From a virus: 23,510 nt of DNA. Position numbers and translations under genes: made by a program. Positions 4,536 to 23,510 of the stretch are shown here, one piece after another. The first letter of the stretch is position 1; every line of letters begins with the position of its first letter. Where the stretch lies: positions 1 through 23,510 of IMG/VR virus record IMGVR_UViG_3300033148_009115. One strand, given 5' to 3'. Under the pieces are notes generated by a model that made no database searches, was not told the origin of the DNA, and was given only the letters and a program-made list of their open reading frames with translations.

Positions 4536-4990
4536 TTTGGCAACAGTCTAAACTTCGGCTTTGCTTTCTTAATATCGACGGTCGGAACTGGTGCTTCAAT
4601 CTTCTTAGGTTTAATATCGACGATCGGAACTGGTACTTCAATCTTCTTAGGTTTAATATCGACGGTCGGAACTGGTGCCTCAATCTTCTTAGGTTTAATA
4701 TCGACGGTCGGATTAATAGCCAGAACGGGTTTGGTTTTAATTAATTTTGGCTTTTCTGGCTTATCACTCTTTTTTTCAATTAGTTCAGGTGGGTCTGGTT
4801 TTTCAGTAGATTCTGTCGGTCTTTCAGCAGGTGCAGCTGGTCTCTCAGCAGATGCAGCTGGTCTCTCAGTGGTCGTAACACGAGAACGATTATATCTCGT
4901 TCGCCGCCTTGATCTCATATTGCTAAAAATTCCACCATGCGCTTCTGATACTAAACACAAGACTAAAACGATCAACATAAGTTTTTTCAT
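4532..4990 (-). CDS. Secreted or periplasmic low-complexity repeat protein (152 aa)
   Basis: The protein starts with a classic Sec signal peptide (MKKLMLIVLVLCLVSEAHG, cleavage likely after AHG). A basic stretch follows (RSRRRTRYNRSR), then ERPAA/ERPTE/EKP repeats. The C-terminal third consists of 14-residue tandem repeats of the type PTVDIKPKKIEAPV, three full copies plus partial ones. The Pro/Lys/Glu-rich mature chain is probably extended and unfolded, as in TonB-like linkers or cell-wall spacers. There is no lipobox or enzymatic domain. CAGGAG lies upstream of the ATG. The upstream neighbour is the radical SAM gene, 47 bases away. Confidence 0.7.
   Translation of the reverse strand: MKKLMLIVLVLCLVSEAHGGIFSNMRSRRRTRYNRSRVTTTERPAASAERPAAPAERPTESTEKPDPPELIEKKSDKPEKPKLIKTKPVLAINPTVDIKPKKIEAPVPTVDIKPKKIEVPVPIVDIKPKKIEAPVPTVDIKKAKPKFRLLPN
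4571..4711 (-). repeat. 42-bp tandem repeat within the secreted protein gene
   Basis: The plus-strand sequence AATATCGACGGTCGG recurs at 4571, 4613 (with one change), 4655 and 4697, an exact period of 42 bases. Each unit encodes 14 residues of the type PTVDIKPKKIEAPV. Near-identity of the units suggests recent slippage or unequal recombination; copy number may vary between relatives. Confidence 0.9.
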
Positions 4991-10161: not shown

Positions 10162-10470
10162 TTATTCTTCATCATATCCATCGTCATCGTCATCATCATC
10201 GTCATCATCATCGTCATCATAGCCATCATCATCGTCGTAACCATCATCATCTTCAAATTCTTCAGTATCATCAAGCTTATCGTAAGGATTAGCCTCAGAA
10301 ATTGTGACCCTATCGCCACATTCAAGCAAATACCTATCCCCGTCAAGAGTGATAAAACTATCTTCTGAAATAATTTTATCACCATTTGCTGAAAAAAACA
10401 AACCAGGGCCAACCTCTACAGATCGGCCACCAATGTATAAAATTGATTTTTCGGTTATTCTTTTTGGCAT
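10162..10470 (-). CDS. Truncated duplicate ending in a poly-Asp tract (102 aa)
   Basis: This is a recent partial duplicate of the gene at 9674-10153. The N-terminal ~75 residues align without gaps (GDKIISEDSFITLDGDRYLL is identical), then the sequence runs into DDGYDDDDGY and a run of about 13 Asp, ending GYDEE. The C-terminal Trp-rich domain is missing. AGGA lies 7 bases before the ATG. It overlaps the upstream DUF5131 gene by 16 bases. It may be a decaying copy or a new acidic DNA-mimic-like protein; the sequence alone cannot decide. Confidence 0.6.
   Translation of the reverse strand: MPKRITEKSILYIGGRSVEVGPGLFFSANGDKIISEDSFITLDGDRYLLECGDRVTISEANPYDKLDDTEEFEDDDGYDDDDGYDDDDDDDDDDDDDGYDEE
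10166..10253 (-). repeat. Asp-codon trinucleotide repeat (GAT/GAC)
   Basis: The plus strand shows repeated CATCGTCATCATCATCG units, that is GAT/GAC codons on the coding strand, interrupted twice by Gly-Tyr codons. The array encodes most of the C-terminus of the truncated duplicate. Triplet expansion from the DDDGYDEE linker seen in the sister gene is the simplest origin. Length is likely variable and is prone to assembly collapse. Confidence 0.85.
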
Positions 10471-15549: not shown

Positions 15550-17169
15550 TTACAAATTACTTACATTAATGGTGGCATAATATAAGCCACCATCTTCGAT
15601 GAGTTTCTTGCCGTATCGGCACATGATGCCCTTGTTGGGCGTGAAGGAGTTTGGATCCAACACTGTGGGCGTGCTTAGCAGCGGAATGTACGGGGCGTAA
15701 AAGTAACCAGCGTCGAGCACGCTCGAACCTTTGAATCCCATCAATATTTTACAGTTCGGGAAGAGAGGATCTTTGTAGATCTTCATCTTGCCTTGAATTG
15801 TGCCGATGTTCATGATTCCGATATCAACGCCTTCGGTTGTGAAGGCGTCGCTCGCTCGGAAGTCGTTCAATTGCTCGAACTTCGAGCAAATGTCAGCACT
15901 CATGACCATCCAGTTAGCTGGACCACGCAAGGTCGTCCGATGGATGATGTTTGCCACTTCGAGGACTTTGTACATCAAGGCGATGTTTCGGTCAGTGAAG
16001 TTGACGGATGCTCCAGCGGCGGTTGCGAAGTTATGGTCAGCTCGGATTGCGGCTGCGATGATCAGGTCGTTGATGATTTCACGATCGATTTCGGCAACCA
16101 TTTCATCGGCCATGAGGTCGGTGAGGGTTGATTCGGCGTCGATGTTGTGAACTGCTTTCAAGTCCTGAGCAGCTTCGAGGCTCCAGGAGGTCTTGAGCTT
16201 TCTGGTGATGGCGGCGACTGAGTCGCTGTCGATGCTCAAGGTAACTTCTGGCTGGAATGGGTTGGCTTCCAGGTCGTATTCGTAGTTCACTCGGGAGATG
16301 GCCCCTGCTGGGAATTCACCACCGGAGAGTGTTACTTGGATTTGGCCGGTACTGTGGCTGAATTCGGTGGCACCTGTCGTGGTGCTATCGACTACCAGGG
16401 TATCGGTGAGGGAGGTGCAGTCGCCAATCAGGATGACGTCTGGTGCTCCATCTGAGTCGAAACTGACTCGGAGGCAGGGTACTGCGTCGTCGCAGTTAGG
16501 ACTGGCATCTGCTTCGCTTTCGAAGACTTCGACGGTTACTGTTCCGGCGAGCACTGGGCGATGAGCTAGTGTTCCGGAGATGACTGTTCCACCTGTGATG
16601 GTGGCGTCTTCACCGCGTACTTCTTGCGAGCTGTAGTACGGGTCGAGTGCCCATCCGTTTTGTCGTGAGAACACTTGTGAGGTGTTCTGACGCATGATTT
16701 GCGTTCCAGCGGTTGTTTGACCCTTGGTGAGGGCGTAACGATACCTGATATAGAAGATCAGGCTGGCTGGCTGACTCATCGGTTGTACGCCGACGAGGTT
16801 ATCTGCAATCAGTTTTGGATAGGATTTGCGGATCAGTGGGAGGGCAAATCGTGTGAAGTCGGCGATGTTGGCTGTGGTCGTCTGGTCTTCCAGGATGATC
16901 GACCTATTTTCTGGATTCCAGGCGTTATACTGGTTTTCCAGGATTGCGGCCATGAGGCCGAATTTTTGCTGCGGTACTTCGCGGCATTTGCCTAGGACTG
17001 GGGACCATTTTCGCACGAGCTGGTTTTTCTTAGCTTCGTGGATAACTGATGCTTTGTGAAGATCAGTTTCTTCGGTGATTGGTCGGCGTCCTCTGGTTTG
17101 GCGGCCTTCTACGAGTTGTTGTCGGCGACCAGTTCTGGCAAAGCGGGATTTTTGTCTTGTTGGTAGCAT
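15550..17169 (-). CDS. Major capsid protein, T4 gp23-like (539 aa)
   Basis: This is the main shell protein of the head. Length is close to T4 gp23 (521 aa). Recognisable stretches are LPLIRKSYPKLIADNLVGVQ with PMSQPASLIFYIRYRY (the gp23 VGVQPM.GP.G.IF motif), MVMSADICSKFEQL, the DPLFPNCKILMGFKGSS segment and the C-terminal KGIMCRYGKKLIEDGG. The region 200-320 contains an Ig- or insertion-like stretch rich in Thr/Asp/Ser. The basic N-terminus (RQKSRFARTGRRQQL) is probably trimmed by the prohead protease. GGAG lies 6 bases before the ATG. GC content is visibly higher than in the accessory genes. Confidence 0.92.
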   Translation of the reverse strand: MLPTRQKSRFARTGRRQQLVEGRQTRGRRPITEETDLHKASVIHEAKKNQLVRKWSPVLGKCREVPQQKFGLMAAILENQYNAWNPENRSIILEDQTTTANIADFTRFALPLIRKSYPKLIADNLVGVQPMSQPASLIFYIRYRYALTKGQTTAGTQIMRQNTSQVFSRQNGWALDPYYSSQEVRGEDATITGGTVISGTLAHRPVLAGTVTVEVFESEADASPNCDDAVPCLRVSFDSDGAPDVILIGDCTSLTDTLVVDSTTTGATEFSHSTGQIQVTLSGGEFPAGAISRVNYEYDLEANPFQPEVTLSIDSDSVAAITRKLKTSWSLEAAQDLKAVHNIDAESTLTDLMADEMVAEIDREIINDLIIAAAIRADHNFATAAGASVNFTDRNIALMYKVLEVANIIHRTTLRGPANWMVMSADICSKFEQLNDFRASDAFTTEGVDIGIMNIGTIQGKMKIYKDPLFPNCKILMGFKGSSVLDAGYFYAPYIPLLSTPTVLDPNSFTPNKGIMCRYGKKLIEDGGLYYATINVSNL

Positions 17170-17977: not shown

Positions 17978-18697
17978 TCACTTTAAGTTAAAGAAACTAT
18001 TAATTTCCTTAACTAACATCTTTTCGTATGTTACTTTCGAAAATTTCGGACGAGATTTCTGCATCGGTCTAATCCTTCTATTCAGACCTTCCTGAATATT
18101 AAGAATAGCACCATTAACAGAAGGTTCAGCAACAGCATCCCAAGTGACAAAAGAATATCCTGGCATAACTCTATGGACTTCATGTCCATCGTGTTCTGTG
18201 ACTTCCATATCGCCAACACCACGCGAGGATATTCCAACTCGGACTTTATGTTCGAAAAGACCTCTCAAACAGGCTCCGCAAGGTAAATTATGAAGCACTT
18301 CTGCCTCACCATAAACCTTACGACCATCCATCCAAATTTTGGTAATAAGATGACTTACACGATCTAAGTGGATTTTAGCATCCGCTGGGTGATCGAATTC
18401 ACCCATAACAGCTCGTCCACCGATTTCTTCTTGGATTTGACCAACAGCTGGCCCCAATACATCACTTGTAGGATAGTACCTACCATTTGCGTTTTCGCGA
18501 TCACCCATCTGAAACAGACCAGTTACACGAAGAATTGGTTGTTCTTTACCATCTTTCCCTTCGATAATCGCATTTTTTGTTTCGATTATCTCAAAGGGAA
18601 AAGTATCCTGAAGAAGCCTGAGACCGGTCGGAATCTGACCAGTTTCAGCAATAAGTCCTCTATTAATATAAGATTTATTCACTCTGCTTGGAAGCAT
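17978..18697 (-). CDS. Prohead core protease, T4 gp21-like (239 aa)
   Basis: This is the serine protease that cleaves core and shell proteins on head maturation. Signature stretches are ENANGRYYPTSDVL, GGRAVMGEFDHPAD with the catalytic His (H103), LITKIWMDGRKVYGEAEVL, and KVRVGISSRGVGD with the nucleophile Ser (S157/158). Late Asp/Glu positions such as VTWDAVAEPS complete the fold. The start is the ATG at 18697, with GGAG 6 bases upstream; an earlier ATG at 18763 lies inside the preceding gene. Length is similar to T4 gp21 (212 aa). Confidence 0.9.
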   Translation of the reverse strand: MLPSRVNKSYINRGLIAETGQIPTGLRLLQDTFPFEIIETKNAIIEGKDGKEQPILRVTGLFQMGDRENANGRYYPTSDVLGPAVGQIQEEIGGRAVMGEFDHPADAKIHLDRVSHLITKIWMDGRKVYGEAEVLHNLPCGACLRGLFEHKVRVGISSRGVGDMEVTEHDGHEVHRVMPGYSFVTWDAVAEPSVNGAILNIQEGLNRRIRPMQKSRPKFSKVTYEKMLVKEINSFFNLK

Positions 18698-18710: not shown

Positions 18711-21700
18711 TTATTTCTGTGACATTTTCTTAGCAGTTGGTGGTTTTGTGCCTGAACCATCATCCGTTTTCAGATCAGGACCAATGCTGTCAAGATTGTC
18801 ATCAGTCTTTTTAGTTAGCTTATGCTCAGGTTGATCCCTCATATTATCCTTAACATGCTTCGTATATTTTGAAGATGATGGTTCCGTAAGGTCCTTATCT
18901 TCAAAATGAGGTTCTTCATCATCCTGTTGTGGTTGCTGTGGGGCACCTTGTTGTGGTTGCTGTGGGGCACCTTGTTGTGGTTGTTGTGGAGCACCTTGTT
19001 GTGGTTGCTGTGCTCCTCCTTCGAAATCGGGCATTTCCTCGCCGCCCATTTCTTCGCCGCCCATTTCCTCGCCGCCCATTTCCTCGCCGCCCATTTCCTC
19101 GCCGCCCATTTCATCATCCATGCCTCCGGCTACAGCGTCGACCGGTTCCATCCCTTCGCCATCCATGCCCATTTCATCATCCATGCCCATTTCATCATCC
19201 ATGCCCATTTCATCATCCATGCCCATTTCACCGTTTTCTCCAACATCAACATCGTCAGAGACTTCGACAGAAATTCCACCATCGGGCGAGGTAGTGATCG
19301 TAGCAACGGCTTCACGTAATGCGCTATCTTCAGAATCCGAAATCGGACGAAGTTGCTCAGCGTGTTCGGCTAACCATCGCACAAATTTTTTCGGATTACC
19401 ATCATTAGACATTTTGGCAGCGGCGAAAGCGTCTTCATATAATTGTTCAGGAAGTGGGATTTCAACGCTACCATCAGAGCTGAGGATTACTGGCCTCATA
19501 TTTTCGTTGGCACCACCATGGTCGAAAATAAACTCGACATCACCAAGGGCACCACCCATTGCGTCTTCTTGAGTTTCGCCCCATTGAATCGACTCATTCT
19601 TGAGTTCTTTCGGAGCGTAAGAAGTTTTACGGAAACCACGGCCACGAATTCTTGGGCCTTTAAATTGATCTTCGGCTACTTCTTCGTCTTCGTCATCTTC
19701 TTCGTCGTCGTCGTCTTCCCAAGGTTTTGTGCTTTTTGTATTCTCAGTATCTCCATCCTTCTTTATCTTGTCAAAATCAAAGGATTCGCTAAACAATGTC
19801 ATTGCCTGGCTCATAGCGGCACCCATCCGACCATCAGGTATCCGAAGCCCAGTCGCCTTAATACTAGCTTCTGCTAAGGATTCCAAATTGCGGGCAAGAC
19901 CTTCTCCAACCAATTTGTGTTCCCTGGCCAGATTAGCCATGATATTCACAATTCGTTGAAGTTCGGTATGGTCGCTAATAACAGGAGCACCATAATTCAT
20001 CATAGATTCGGAAGGTCCAGCCACCGCATTCTTTATAGCATACGGATCAGTGCTCTCCATGCAATCCTCTTCTTCATCTTCACAACCGGCATTATCGTCG
20101 TCTTCCTCATCCTTCATTTCATAATGTTTCGGACGAGATTCTCTAACGGTTTTACCTCTTTTTCGTGTTCCTTCAAGACCCAATCCCTCATCGCCACCAG
20201 CTCCACCAAGCAATGCAGCAAGTTCATCTTGCCCACCACCTGCACCACCCAAGTCCTCTTCTTCACCTCCAAGACCTAATTCCTCTTCGGGAAGTTCTGG
20301 TTCTGCTTCCGGTTCTGGGAGTAATTCTTCTTCCTCACCTCCACCGCTGCTGCTACCACCAATTTGGATCAATGGTGAATTAATATTGATTACTGGAGCA
20401 CCACCTTCGGCTTCAGCTCCGCCCATCGGATCAGCTTCAAGATCGTCAAGCATACCTGCTTCACTATCACCACCTGGCATTTGATCAAAATCGCCTAGGG
20501 TCTCAGTAGCTGCTAATTCTTCTTGAATCGTTGCAATAAGATCTTCTGCTTCGTAAATTGCAGCATCATCCAAATTACGACCCTTCAGACGAACAATCAA
20601 ACTATCCAATTTACTAGATAGATCATGAGATTCTCTGATTTTCGGTGTTTTGTTTTTCAAAACTTCCAGAGTTGTAGCCAATGCTTCAGCGGCTACTTCT
20701 CTATTAGAAATTGCTTCGAAAATTAATTCGAGGAATTTATCATAGGCTGCTTCGAAATTCTTCGATTCAGATAGAATATGCACATTTTCCGCTAAAGTAG
20801 CGTGTTCAGCACGGCGAGCAATATTCTTCCATTCATCCAGGATTTTTCTACGGTTTACACGTAGATTGGTACGATGGAATAAAGTAGCCGAATCATCGCA
20901 TAATTGTTGATTAAATACTGCATTCGCTGCAAGAGCATTTTCAACTACTATTTGGGTTTTAGAACGCGATAGAAGAGTAAATTCTTCCATCTCATCTAAG
21001 AATGGAGTAATGCTGGCAACTGCTTCTTCGATTTTACCTTCAGCGATAAAATTAGCAATCCCAACAATTCGTTTTTGAAAGCCTTCAGACCAATATGCAT
21101 TTTCAGCTACATTGAGCATTTTCTTCGCGACGAGTTTTCTGGCGGCCCATTTTGTAACTGGCAATTTGATCGGTGCACCATCGTTGAATCTGGCCGATAC
21201 AACCTGACCATTTTCAACCAGCACTTGATCTCGTAGACCTTCAACAATGGCACCAATAAGGCGACCACGTACGTCTTCAGTTAATGATAAATCTGTCGCG
21301 ACTTGTACTCGACGTACAATATTATCCTTGCCTTTAACAAGACCAGAATATGGGACAGATCGACCGGAGAATTTGTGGCTCTTCATTTTATTGAAGGACG
21401 ACAACATTCCACGTTGATTATTTTCTTCGATCGCTCCAACTAATTTCAGGCATGCTTCACCGAAGATGTGTTGTTTTTCACCTTCTTTTATTTGGATCTG
21501 TCGAATATTTTCGATAGACACATTACCTGAGGATGTTGAATGCTTTGCAACATAAAAAATGTTGCTATCGACATCTTCAATAAACAAATCATTGGCTCTG
21601 AGGGCTGCCAGTCGCCAATTTTTACCACCTTTACGACCCATATCCCGGACGCGACCTTCAAAAAAGGCCACTTTTGCTTGAGCCGAATTGTTTAAAGCCC

Positions 21701-21761
21701 CCAGAAATTTTCGACTATCCATGGTAATAGGGGTAGTCGTTGTTTTCTGATTTGAAGCCAT
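18711..21761 (-). CDS. Large acidic prohead-associated protein (1016 aa)
   Basis: It lies between portal and protease genes, where T4 has small acidic core proteins (gp67/gp68). Residues 1-420 are mostly helical (KFLGALNNSAQAKVAFFEGR, then long helices to TIQEELAATET). Residues 430-560 are extremely acidic Gly/Glu/Asp-rich with a conserved-looking APVININSPLIQIG. A second helical part (ISDHTELQRIVNIMANLARE) is followed by EDDDDEEDDEDEE, then tandem MGMDDE, MGGEE and GAPQQPQQ repeats, and a polar tail ending AKKMSQK. GGGAG lies 8 bases before the ATG. I infer a structural core or internal head protein that is probably cut by the protease; no enzymatic domain is visible. Confidence 0.8.
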   Translation of the reverse strand: MASNQKTTTTPITMDSRKFLGALNNSAQAKVAFFEGRVRDMGRKGGKNWRLAALRANDLFIEDVDSNIFYVAKHSTSSGNVSIENIRQIQIKEGEKQHIFGEACLKLVGAIEENNQRGMLSSFNKMKSHKFSGRSVPYSGLVKGKDNIVRRVQVATDLSLTEDVRGRLIGAIVEGLRDQVLVENGQVVSARFNDGAPIKLPVTKWAARKLVAKKMLNVAENAYWSEGFQKRIVGIANFIAEGKIEEAVASITPFLDEMEEFTLLSRSKTQIVVENALAANAVFNQQLCDDSATLFHRTNLRVNRRKILDEWKNIARRAEHATLAENVHILSESKNFEAAYDKFLELIFEAISNREVAAEALATTLEVLKNKTPKIRESHDLSSKLDSLIVRLKGRNLDDAAIYEAEDLIATIQEELAATETLGDFDQMPGGDSEAGMLDDLEADPMGGAEAEGGAPVININSPLIQIGGSSSGGGEEEELLPEPEAEPELPEEELGLGGEEEDLGGAGGGQDELAALLGGAGGDEGLGLEGTRKRGKTVRESRPKHYEMKDEEDDDNAGCEDEEEDCMESTDPYAIKNAVAGPSESMMNYGAPVISDHTELQRIVNIMANLAREHKLVGEGLARNLESLAEASIKATGLRIPDGRMGAAMSQAMTLFSESFDFDKIKKDGDTENTKSTKPWEDDDDEEDDEDEEVAEDQFKGPRIRGRGFRKTSYAPKELKNESIQWGETQEDAMGGALGDVEFIFDHGGANENMRPVILSSDGSVEIPLPEQLYEDAFAAAKMSNDGNPKKFVRWLAEHAEQLRPISDSEDSALREAVATITTSPDGGISVEVSDDVDVGENGEMGMDDEMGMDDEMGMDDEMGMDGEGMEPVDAVAGGMDDEMGGEEMGGEEMGGEEMGGEEMGGEEMPDFEGGAQQPQQGAPQQPQQGAPQQPQQGAPQQPQQDDEEPHFEDKDLTEPSSSKYTKHVKDNMRDQPEHKLTKKTDDNLDSIGPDLKTDDGSGTKPPTAKKMSQK
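18924..19019 (-). repeat. 24-bp tandem repeat encoding GAPQQPQQ
   Basis: Four units with period 24 on the plus strand share GTTGTGGTTG and GGGGCACC, starting at about 18924, 18948, 18972 and 18996. They encode GAPQQPQQ in the acidic head protein. Near-identical units imply recent expansion. Confidence 0.9.
19032..19110 (-). repeat. 15-bp tandem repeat encoding MGGEE
   Basis: Five near-identical units, CATTTCCTCGCCGCC on the plus strand, begin at about 19032 with a period of 15. They encode repeated MGGEE in the large acidic protein, continuing the array of short acidic repeats. Confidence 0.9.
19165..19230 (-). repeat. 18-bp tandem repeat encoding MGMDDE
   Basis: Units ATGCCCATTTCATCATCC at 19165, 19183 and 19201, plus a partial fourth, have period 18. 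They encode MGMDDE repeats in the large acidic protein. Confidence 0.9.
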
Positions 21762-21829: not shown

Positions 21830-23510
21830 CTATAGATTGCTCACTGTTGTCGTTGGAAGATCGCTTTCAGTAATCTCATCAGATACCTCTATCGATCCTT
21901 CAGAACCAGCAGTGATCACATTATAAACCTCCTCGATAGTCTGATCACGTTCATCTTCATCAATAGACCATTCTACCAGCACACCTTTATCATGATTTGG
22001 ATTATAAATCTCACCAGCTATATTAGAACTAGGCGAAGTTTTGCTAAGCCCATCAAATTCTTTATTCTCCAACAAATTAGAATAACCACTGGCAAACTCT
22101 CTTGGATCGGGATCAGTAGATTTACCTAATCTATCAGCCCATTTACGAACATAAGCCATGGTTTCAGTTATATTCCTATTTTTCTTCATTTGCTTAAGTA
22201 AACGCTTCTCAGCATTCCTATCATATCCTTCAATTGGCAAACTCTCTTCCTCAGCAGCAGGCTCTAAACCTTCTCCTCCATCCTCACCATCAACATCGAG
22301 CCCATCATCCCCTTCTAAATCCTCACCATCAGCCATTTCTGGATCCATATCTAAACCACCACCAGGCATCCCTCCACCACCAGAACCACCCTGACCTTCT
22401 TCGCCTTCCATTTCTTTCAATTCTTCGATTTCATCCGGAGACAAATCAGTAAAATGTGTAACAATCCATTCTTTTGGAAACCAACCAAGATCCTTAAGGT
22501 CAGCCATAACACCAACCCTAGTTTGCCATGTCTCTATACGATATAATTCTTCCATCGCTGAAGTAGCAGTAAGAGCTATTTCAAAACCCTTCAAATCCTC
22601 AACACTATATCCCTTTAACGCTAAATGAATAATAGCTACCTTCGTAAGGCCAGTCGAAACTTCTCTTTGAACCCACTGCACTGCTTTAGCAAATTCAGAA
22701 TGCGATTGAGATAATGATTTCTCACTCGCTTCACCAGAACCCTCACCAATCCCAACTCTAGCAAACGGGATCTTAGTTGGTGCTATCATTTTCTTCTTGA
22801 AGTATTCAATATCAGCTATTTGATCAAGATTCTCAGCACCAGGCAACACATCTACATCAGGACCAGTACCATCAGGTCTCCGAGGTAAAAAGAAATCATC
22901 TTCCTGAATAAGAGGAGAATATCTCTCATCAAAAGTACCTGTCGTTGGATTATAAAACCTCTGTCTCTTAAAATTCCTAGCAATCATTTGCATATATTCA
23001 GGAACTTCTTTTGGTGGAATAAGTCCAACAGGAATCGTGAATTTACGTTTCTCAGGGGCACGAGTAATTCTATAAATCAAAGCTGCGTCTTCCATCAATC
23101 GCAACTGTTTAAATGCTTTCCTACCACCATCGATTATACTTCGTCCATACGGATGATAAATATTTTCAAAACTCGTTAACCGCAGATGCATTACCTGCCA
23201 AGGATGCATAAATTGTGGTTCAGGGTAAAGTGCATCCTGATAAAAGAATCCGACAAGATCTCCAAACCTAGTCTCGATCCTGGTAAAATTATAAACATTC
23301 ATAAAACGTACCGACGCCACACCATCACGAGACGTCGTCGGTTGAACTTCAAACGGTAAATCGCCATATTTGCATAAATATCTAATAGATGGGCGACAAT
23401 AATTATCCCAAAGAAGAGTGTCAAAGAATAAATCTTCCAACTCTTTCTTTAGTCGCCGATTCCTAGCCCTAATAACTAATGTATGCTTACGCTCTGGATC
23501 GACCAAACTA
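21830..23510 (-). CDS. Portal vertex protein, T4 gp20-like, N-terminus cut by the window edge
   Basis: The portal (head-to-tail connector, DNA entry) is identified from RAPEKRKFTIPVGLIPPKEV, FDERYSPLIQEDDFFLPRRP and DVDVLPGAENLDQIADIEYFKKKM, which match T4 gp20 RAVYRI.VG..PK, FWLPRREG, LPGG.NLG.I.DI.YF..K. The frame runs off the right edge, so about the first 100 residues are missing. After the core there is a Gly/Met/Asp-rich acidic linker (GQGGSGGGGMPGGG, then GEDLEGDDGLDVDGEDGG) and an extra C-terminal domain (ITETMAYVRKWADRLGK to the end). This makes the protein longer than gp20. It starts the head operon. Confidence 0.92.
   Translation of the reverse strand, partial: SLVDPERKHTLVIRARNRRLKKELEDLFFDTLLWDNYCRPSIRYLCKYGDLPFEVQPTTSRDGVASVRFMNVYNFTRIETRFGDLVGFFYQDALYPEPQFMHPWQVMHLRLTSFENIYHPYGRSIIDGGRKAFKQLRLMEDAALIYRITRAPEKRKFTIPVGLIPPKEVPEYMQMIARNFKRQRFYNPTTGTFDERYSPLIQEDDFFLPRRPDGTGPDVDVLPGAENLDQIADIEYFKKKMIAPTKIPFARVGIGEGSGEASEKSLSQSHSEFAKAVQWVQREVSTGLTKVAIIHLALKGYSVEDLKGFEIALTATSAMEELYRIETWQTRVGVMADLKDLGWFPKEWIVTHFTDLSPDEIEELKEMEGEEGQGGSGGGGMPGGGLDMDPEMADGEDLEGDDGLDVDGEDGGEGLEPAAEEESLPIEGYDRNAEKRLLKQMKKNRNITETMAYVRKWADRLGKSTDPDPREFASGYSNLLENKEFDGLSKTSPSSNIAGEIYNPNHDKGVLVEWSIDEDERDQTIEEVYNVITAGSEGSIEVSDEITESDLPTTTVSNL

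Follow-up and report, generated by a model that had tools for sequence, protein, structure and literature searches.

The window, an entire 23.5-kb viral contig of IMG/VR (23,510 nucleotides), encodes a 1016-residue protein, here called P0001. It is a member of a family of multi-domain proteins of ~1000 residues that are carried by huge T4-like phages and had not been annotated before. P0001 is probably, at a likelihood of about 0.7, an enlarged prohead-core (inner scaffold) protein that is processed by the prohead protease and forms the positional counterpart of T4 gp67/gp68.

Gene Call and Genomic Context

P0001 is encoded in a single 1016-codon frame on the minus strand, with an ATG start and an SD sequence located approximately 11 nt upstream (Table 1). 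The product has a computed pI of 4.47, a molecular mass of 110.7 kDa and a D+E content of 20%. Genes are ordered portal, P0001, protease, scaffold and major capsid protein (MCP), and the ORF, its start, its SD and the profiles of its neighbours all agree with the original prediction of a single 1016-residue gene between portal and protease. The slot holds no separate gp67 or gp68 genes, because only 68 nt separate the portal stop from the P0001 start and only 13 nt the P0001 stop from the protease start. P0001 does not occupy the gp22 slot either; the interval between protease and MCP is taken by a separate 238-aa gene, for which no significant or usable profile match to gp22 was obtained. Close to its C-terminus the portal has a stretch that is acidic and rich in Gly, Glu and Asp (window 21830-22400; EGEEGQGGSGGGGMPGGGLDMDPEMADGEDLEGDDG), as do the portals of relatives.

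Table 1. Features of the P0001 locus in window coordinates; a slash marks a cleavage position.
Feature	Position	Strand	Basis and remarks
Portal gp20	21830..23509	-	Portal_T4 7e-63; phrog_213; runs past window edge
P0001, 1016 aa	18711..21761	-	ATG and SD GAGGGAG; ~40 intact homologues in same slot
Conserved N-terminal domain, residues 13-430	20472..21725	-	Conservation; AF2 mean pLDDT 72, pTM 0.38
gp67-like helical hairpin, residues 95-130	21372..21479	-	hhalign against gp67 alignment; AF2 helices 95-112, 116-128
Conserved linear motif APVININSPLIQIGGSS, residues 455-471	20349..20399	-	Family conservation; within acidic linker
Candidate site VRE/S, residue 541	20139..20147	-	Glu 93%; [LIVMF] at P3 in 100% of those
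Candidate site xxE/S, residue 569	20055..20063	-	Glu 96%; P3 hydrophobic 81%
Helical domain, residues 589-670	19752..19997	-	AF2, four helices, pLDDT ~90
Candidate site VAE/DQ, residue 697	19671..19679	-	Glu 100%; [LIVMF] at P3 100%
Alpha/beta domain, residues 723-836	19254..19595	-	AF2 pLDDT ~92 over 724-813
MGMDDE repeat, 18 bp x 3.9	19160..19230	-	TRF; not conserved among relatives
MGGEE repeat, 15 bp x 5.4	19032..19112	-	TRF; not conserved among relatives
QQGAPQQP repeat, 24 bp x 3.7	18925..19012	-	TRF; not conserved among relatives
Conserved C-terminal tail, residues 954-1016, ends DDGSGTKPPTAK	18714..18902	-	Family conservation
Prohead protease gp21	17978..18697	-	Peptidase_S77 6.7e-19; start MLPSR, SD GGAGAAGG; conserved IAE/TG near N-terminus
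Scaffold gene at gp22 position, 238 aa	17204..17920	-	Position; conserved L-x-E/SQD
Major capsid protein gp23	15550..17169	-	Gp23 7.5e-79; predicted cleavage site ILE/DQ

The portals of relatives carry an intein-like insertion after '(Y)ADEA' (locus L047, 1942-5121; L012, 3236-5809; L002, 1706-2797), which extends from C-LTGDTHIP... to ...VHN/S in L047 and from C-VAGDTLIS... to ...MHN/C in L012 and apparently occupies the same site in two clades of huge phages. The portal frame of the window begins at the contig edge (23504-23509) with the Ser that directly follows the intein junction of these relatives, and the contig therefore ends at an intein border. Over-long ORFs encoding portals in L009 (2811-7571; 1586 aa) and L079 (861-4643; 1260 aa) and a terminase in L010 (1863-5144; 1093 aa) probably represent further inteins; the protease ORF of L009 is also long, at 651 aa.

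Distribution of the P0001 Family

Three scans of IMG/VR contigs identified P0001 relatives at ~45 loci. Every complete locus (~40 checked) contains one intact ORF of ~970-1138 aa between portal and protease, with the L026 homologue reading 920 aa by virtue of a later start in the ORF call. Homologues divided into two or more genes, the observation that would speak against the original prediction, were found at none of these ~40 loci. Contigs encoding a homologue measure 408,349 bp (L017), 355,825 bp (L190) and 231,672 bp (L185), with others of 178 and 177 kb; the lineage therefore has jumbo genomes. These lengths are lower bounds on genome size. The GTDB genome contigs searched contained no P0001 relative and therefore provide no clue to the host.

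Searches of Pfam and PHROGs with P0001 returned sub-threshold or low-complexity matches only, the family profile had no match in a sequence search of the PDB, and tblastn of P0001 against the 50,697 phage records of a cultured-phage collection gave no match. Foldseek and VIA-align searches with both AlphaFold2 (AF2) models produced no credible structural match (best PDB Z scores of 6.0 and 5.1, within the noise of the tool), a result that is not evidence for a new fold; one match was found in BFVD, a 751-aa protein of an uncultured phage (A0A6J5QSB8, E 2e-4). P0001 represents a new family, of which three or more conserved modules lack known relatives in the libraries searched.

Domain Organization

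The anatomy of P0001 was derived from conservation within the family and two AF2 models. The N-terminal domain is predicted with moderate confidence to consist of a beta meander (residues 49-92), a helical hairpin (95-128) and then mainly helices, and apart from this N-terminus the alpha/beta domain is the most widely conserved part of the protein. The 63-residue C-terminal tail has diverged in the most distant relatives. The original prediction of two helical regions was roughly right in extent (1-420 and 589-670) and overlooked the alpha/beta domain between residues 723 and 836, as well as the conserved motifs at 455-471 and 954-1016.

Three linkers separate the conserved parts (431-588, 671-722 and the repeat-rich 837-953), all of them acidic, with net charges of -23 over residues 431-540, -13 over 541-588, -8 over 671-722 and -36 over 837-953. 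Residues 1-430 are neutral and the acidity of P0001 is confined to its linkers. The 17-residue motif at 455-471 is near-invariant and stands isolated within a disordered acidic linker, where it looks like a binding peptide.

The three different short tandem repeats that had been read from the sequence were all recovered as TRF arrays, and all fall between residues ~841 and 950. Strain-level variation in such repeats is seen between loci L007 and L008, which are identical over 8 kb upstream and whose homologues differ by one substitution and one three-residue repeat unit, the length difference being one MEG unit at residue ~853 of the homologue. Because these near-identical phages differ by one unit, the repeats resemble spacers prone to slippage more than functional units. 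Further short tandem repeats are present in the same phage at window positions 4569-4737 (a 42-bp repeat within an ORF of 152 aa whose start resembles a signal peptide) and 10169-10255 (a CATCATCGT array), and repeat-rich ORFs are therefore not peculiar to the core gene. In another T4-like lineage, the gene just upstream of the protease encodes an acidic protein of 282 aa that also carries the MDDEMG-type repeat (L011, 2725-3573). This protein was considered as a relative on the basis of its repeat and rejected, as it is unrelated to P0001 and its hairpin has no match to gp67; the shared repeat is an apparent convergence.

Candidate Protease Cleavage Sites

In T4, the prohead protease gp21 cleaves after L/I-X-E (PMC9026906). 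In the phages of the P0001 family this rule also fits the protease itself (IAE/TG), the scaffold (LxE/SQD) and the MCP, where the hydrophobic P3 residue of ILE/DQ is kept in 18 of 18 distinct sequences. Within P0001, three candidate sites at residues 541, 569 and 697 are located in low-confidence linkers that border the AF2 domains. In the family alignment, positions P2 and P4 are almost never hydrophobic at these three Glu residues, and the restriction of hydrophobicity to P3 therefore indicates a motif and not a buried segment. Site 569 reads CME in the window phage, with a P3 Cys that is off the rule, and L/I-x-E in most relatives; L190 has lost site 541, and L191 has lost site 697. [LI]-x-E motifs are common, and sites within the folded N-terminal domain of P0001 match the rule equally well. 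These patterns suggest that P0001 may be cleaved by the gp21-type protease at its linker sites.

Relationship to T4 gp67 and gp68

The slot between portal and protease in T4 encodes gp67 (PIP; PHROG 1064), an acidic protein of 80 aa, and gp68 (PHROG 1049), a basic protein of 141 aa, such that the expectation of only small acidic proteins at this position holds for gp67 and not for gp68. Among cultured T4-like phages of several families, the slot holds small proteins: gp67 and gp68 are found in T4, KVP40, RB43, Acj61, Aes012, CC2 and others, and small hypothetical proteins occupy the slot in cyanophages, Ackermannviridae and Maribacter phage Colly_1. The T4-like Stenotrophomonas phage RAS14 (319 kb) has three small ORFs at this position, one with a gp67-like start.

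Similarly to P0001, gp67 is encoded directly downstream of the portal and combines acidic low-complexity sequence with a helical hairpin, gp67 residues 3-26 corresponding to ~106-130 of P0001; in T4 it is a protease substrate. It differs in its length of 80 aa against 1016 aa and in the absence of three further conserved regions of P0001. T4 gp68 shares the slot and adjoins the protease gene, but is small and basic and had no match to P0001 in profile comparison.

A gp67 profile was built from ten gp67-position proteins, and its hairpin aligns at residues ~107-130 of the P0001 family and at the equivalent place in the family of uncultured phage LR756511, described below. Column shuffles reached the gp67 score in 1 of 200 trials for the P0001 family, 0 of 200 for the LR756511 family and 0 of 300 with a wider alignment, although column shuffling ignores helix periodicity and is a lenient null for helices. 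Individual hhalign probabilities were 2.7-7% (3.7% with the wider alignment), far under ordinary significance. When the ORFs of the P0001 loci were searched with an HMM of the hairpin only, the P0001 homologues took ranks 1, 2, 4 and 5, in register, with no E-value below 0.5. Each of these tests is weak singly and it is their common register that gives them value; homology of P0001 to gp67, judged from these profiles, is supported but weak. Single-sequence comparison of P0001 with gp67 and gp68 gave meaningless alignments and was discarded, the hairpin emerging from family profiles only.

P0001 shares the gp67/gp68-type position, a gene between gp20 and gp21, resembles these proteins in motif content, and at 1016 aa (~970-1138 aa in relatives) lies outside the gp67/gp68-type size of about 50-170 aa. 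It was not filed as gp67 because of this size and because homology is only suggested. The earlier proposal of a fused core protein is best supported in its core part, by position, acidic linkers, conserved protease-type sites and the gp67-like hairpin. A plain fusion of gp67 and gp68 is not what was found, as only one hairpin is gp67-like, gp68 has no match and the greater part of the chain has no known counterpart.

A Related Protein in a Second Clade of Huge Phages

The nearest MCP outside the P0001 family, at 38% identity, is that of LR756511, a 595-kb uncultured phage whose accession is not discussed in the literature searched. In LR756511 and ~55 distinct relatives, on contigs of up to 532 kb, the gene immediately ahead of the protease encodes a protein of 570-700 aa. 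When an HMM of P0001 residues 1-432 was run blind on 1302 ORFs from loci of this clade, the first 30 places were all taken by this ~600-aa protein, always via residues ~40-135, and the reverse search agrees. Comparison of the two family profiles with hhalign gave a P of 0.00091, a score reached by 0 of 100 column shuffles, and the P became 0.00035 once four more distant relatives were included. The two proteins share their slot, large size, and beta meander and hairpin (residues ~40-135), whereas the LR756511-clade protein lacks the acidic repeats and C-terminal domains of P0001 and has a basic stretch at 140-190 and a conserved C-terminal half of its own. Unlike P0001, this protein scores against gp68 (HMMER 8.9e-6, in a basic region; 0 of 200 shuffles by hhalign). 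In part of this clade a glycosyltransferase-like gene is located between portal and core protein (L012, 6607-7881; equivalents in L051-L060).

Proposed Role and Alternatives

As an enlarged core protein, P0001 would have arisen in this lineage by the addition of domains and acidic linkers to the gp67/gp68 counterpart, and would co-assemble with the gp22-like scaffold, the protease and the portal inside the growing prohead, its disordered acidic linkers spacing the folded modules. The gp21-type protease would then cut the linkers at the [LI]-x-E-type sites 541, 569 and 697, releasing modules and acidic peptides that may be expelled or kept in the head, and this processing would make room for DNA before packing. 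We infer the presence of P0001 in the prohead, its cleavage and the fate of its fragments from the features described above.

An unlikely alternative is that P0001 is an ejection protein of the head interior: many copies would be packaged, the protease would trim them, and they would enter the host together with the DNA, where the folded domains would act. Parallels are found in the T4 IPs and Alt and in the inner-body proteins of phiKZ, the latter being cleaved at S/A-x-E and packaged as an inner body. T4 IPI-III and Alt carry a short N-terminal capsid-targeting peptide that is removed after L/I-x-E; in P0001 no conserved site of this kind was found ahead of the first domain, which begins at residue 13. 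Its conserved folded domains (1-430, 589-670 and 723-836) are bigger than a throw-away scaffold requires and the candidate protease sites fall between them, both in keeping with ejection, as is the finding that T4 internal proteins are also core components (PMC9026906, PMC9958956). However, the gene occupies the gp67/gp68 slot rather than an IP-gene position, the conserved N-terminal module of P0001 includes the gp67-like hairpin, and no enzymatic motif was found in the protein.

It is more doubtful still that the main role of P0001 is that of a ruler setting the larger head of this lineage, attractive as a part in head size would be. The family has so far been found on large-genome contigs (408, 356, 232, 178 and 177 kb), with a related form in the clade reaching 595 kb, and head size in T4 is likely influenced by gp22, gp67 and gp68 (PMC9026906); however, lineage and genome size are confounded here. 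With its 319-kb genome, RAS14 has small ORFs only in the slot, and a giant core protein is therefore no general need of large heads or jumbo T4-like phages. A strict ruler would not be expected to allow the free variation in linker and repeat length, which extends even to near-identical phages, and T4 head length is altered mainly by mutations in gp23 (PMC9958956). It might also be argued, since most of its chain has no detectable relative of known function, that P0001 is a structural protein with no connection to the core, associated with the portal or otherwise, and sits in the slot by chance. This is highly improbable given the conserved slot, the conserved protease-type sites and the shared hairpin.

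With P0001 taken as a core protein, a more speculative and rather doubtful extension is that a gp67-like hairpin was expanded separately in two huge T4-like phage clades, giving giant core polyproteins of modular build from which the prohead protease would free folded proteins, an elaboration that might have shaped enlarged heads or packaged protein cargo. For annotators, the family gives a name to an otherwise hypothetical 1000-aa head gene. P0001 connects the core proteins of T4, which are small and evolve fast, with large proteins that lack annotation in uncultured huge phages. For the questions of how genomes of 400 to 600 kb are attained in T4-type phages and how head size is set, its family offers a defined head-cluster candidate with predicted cut sites and domains.
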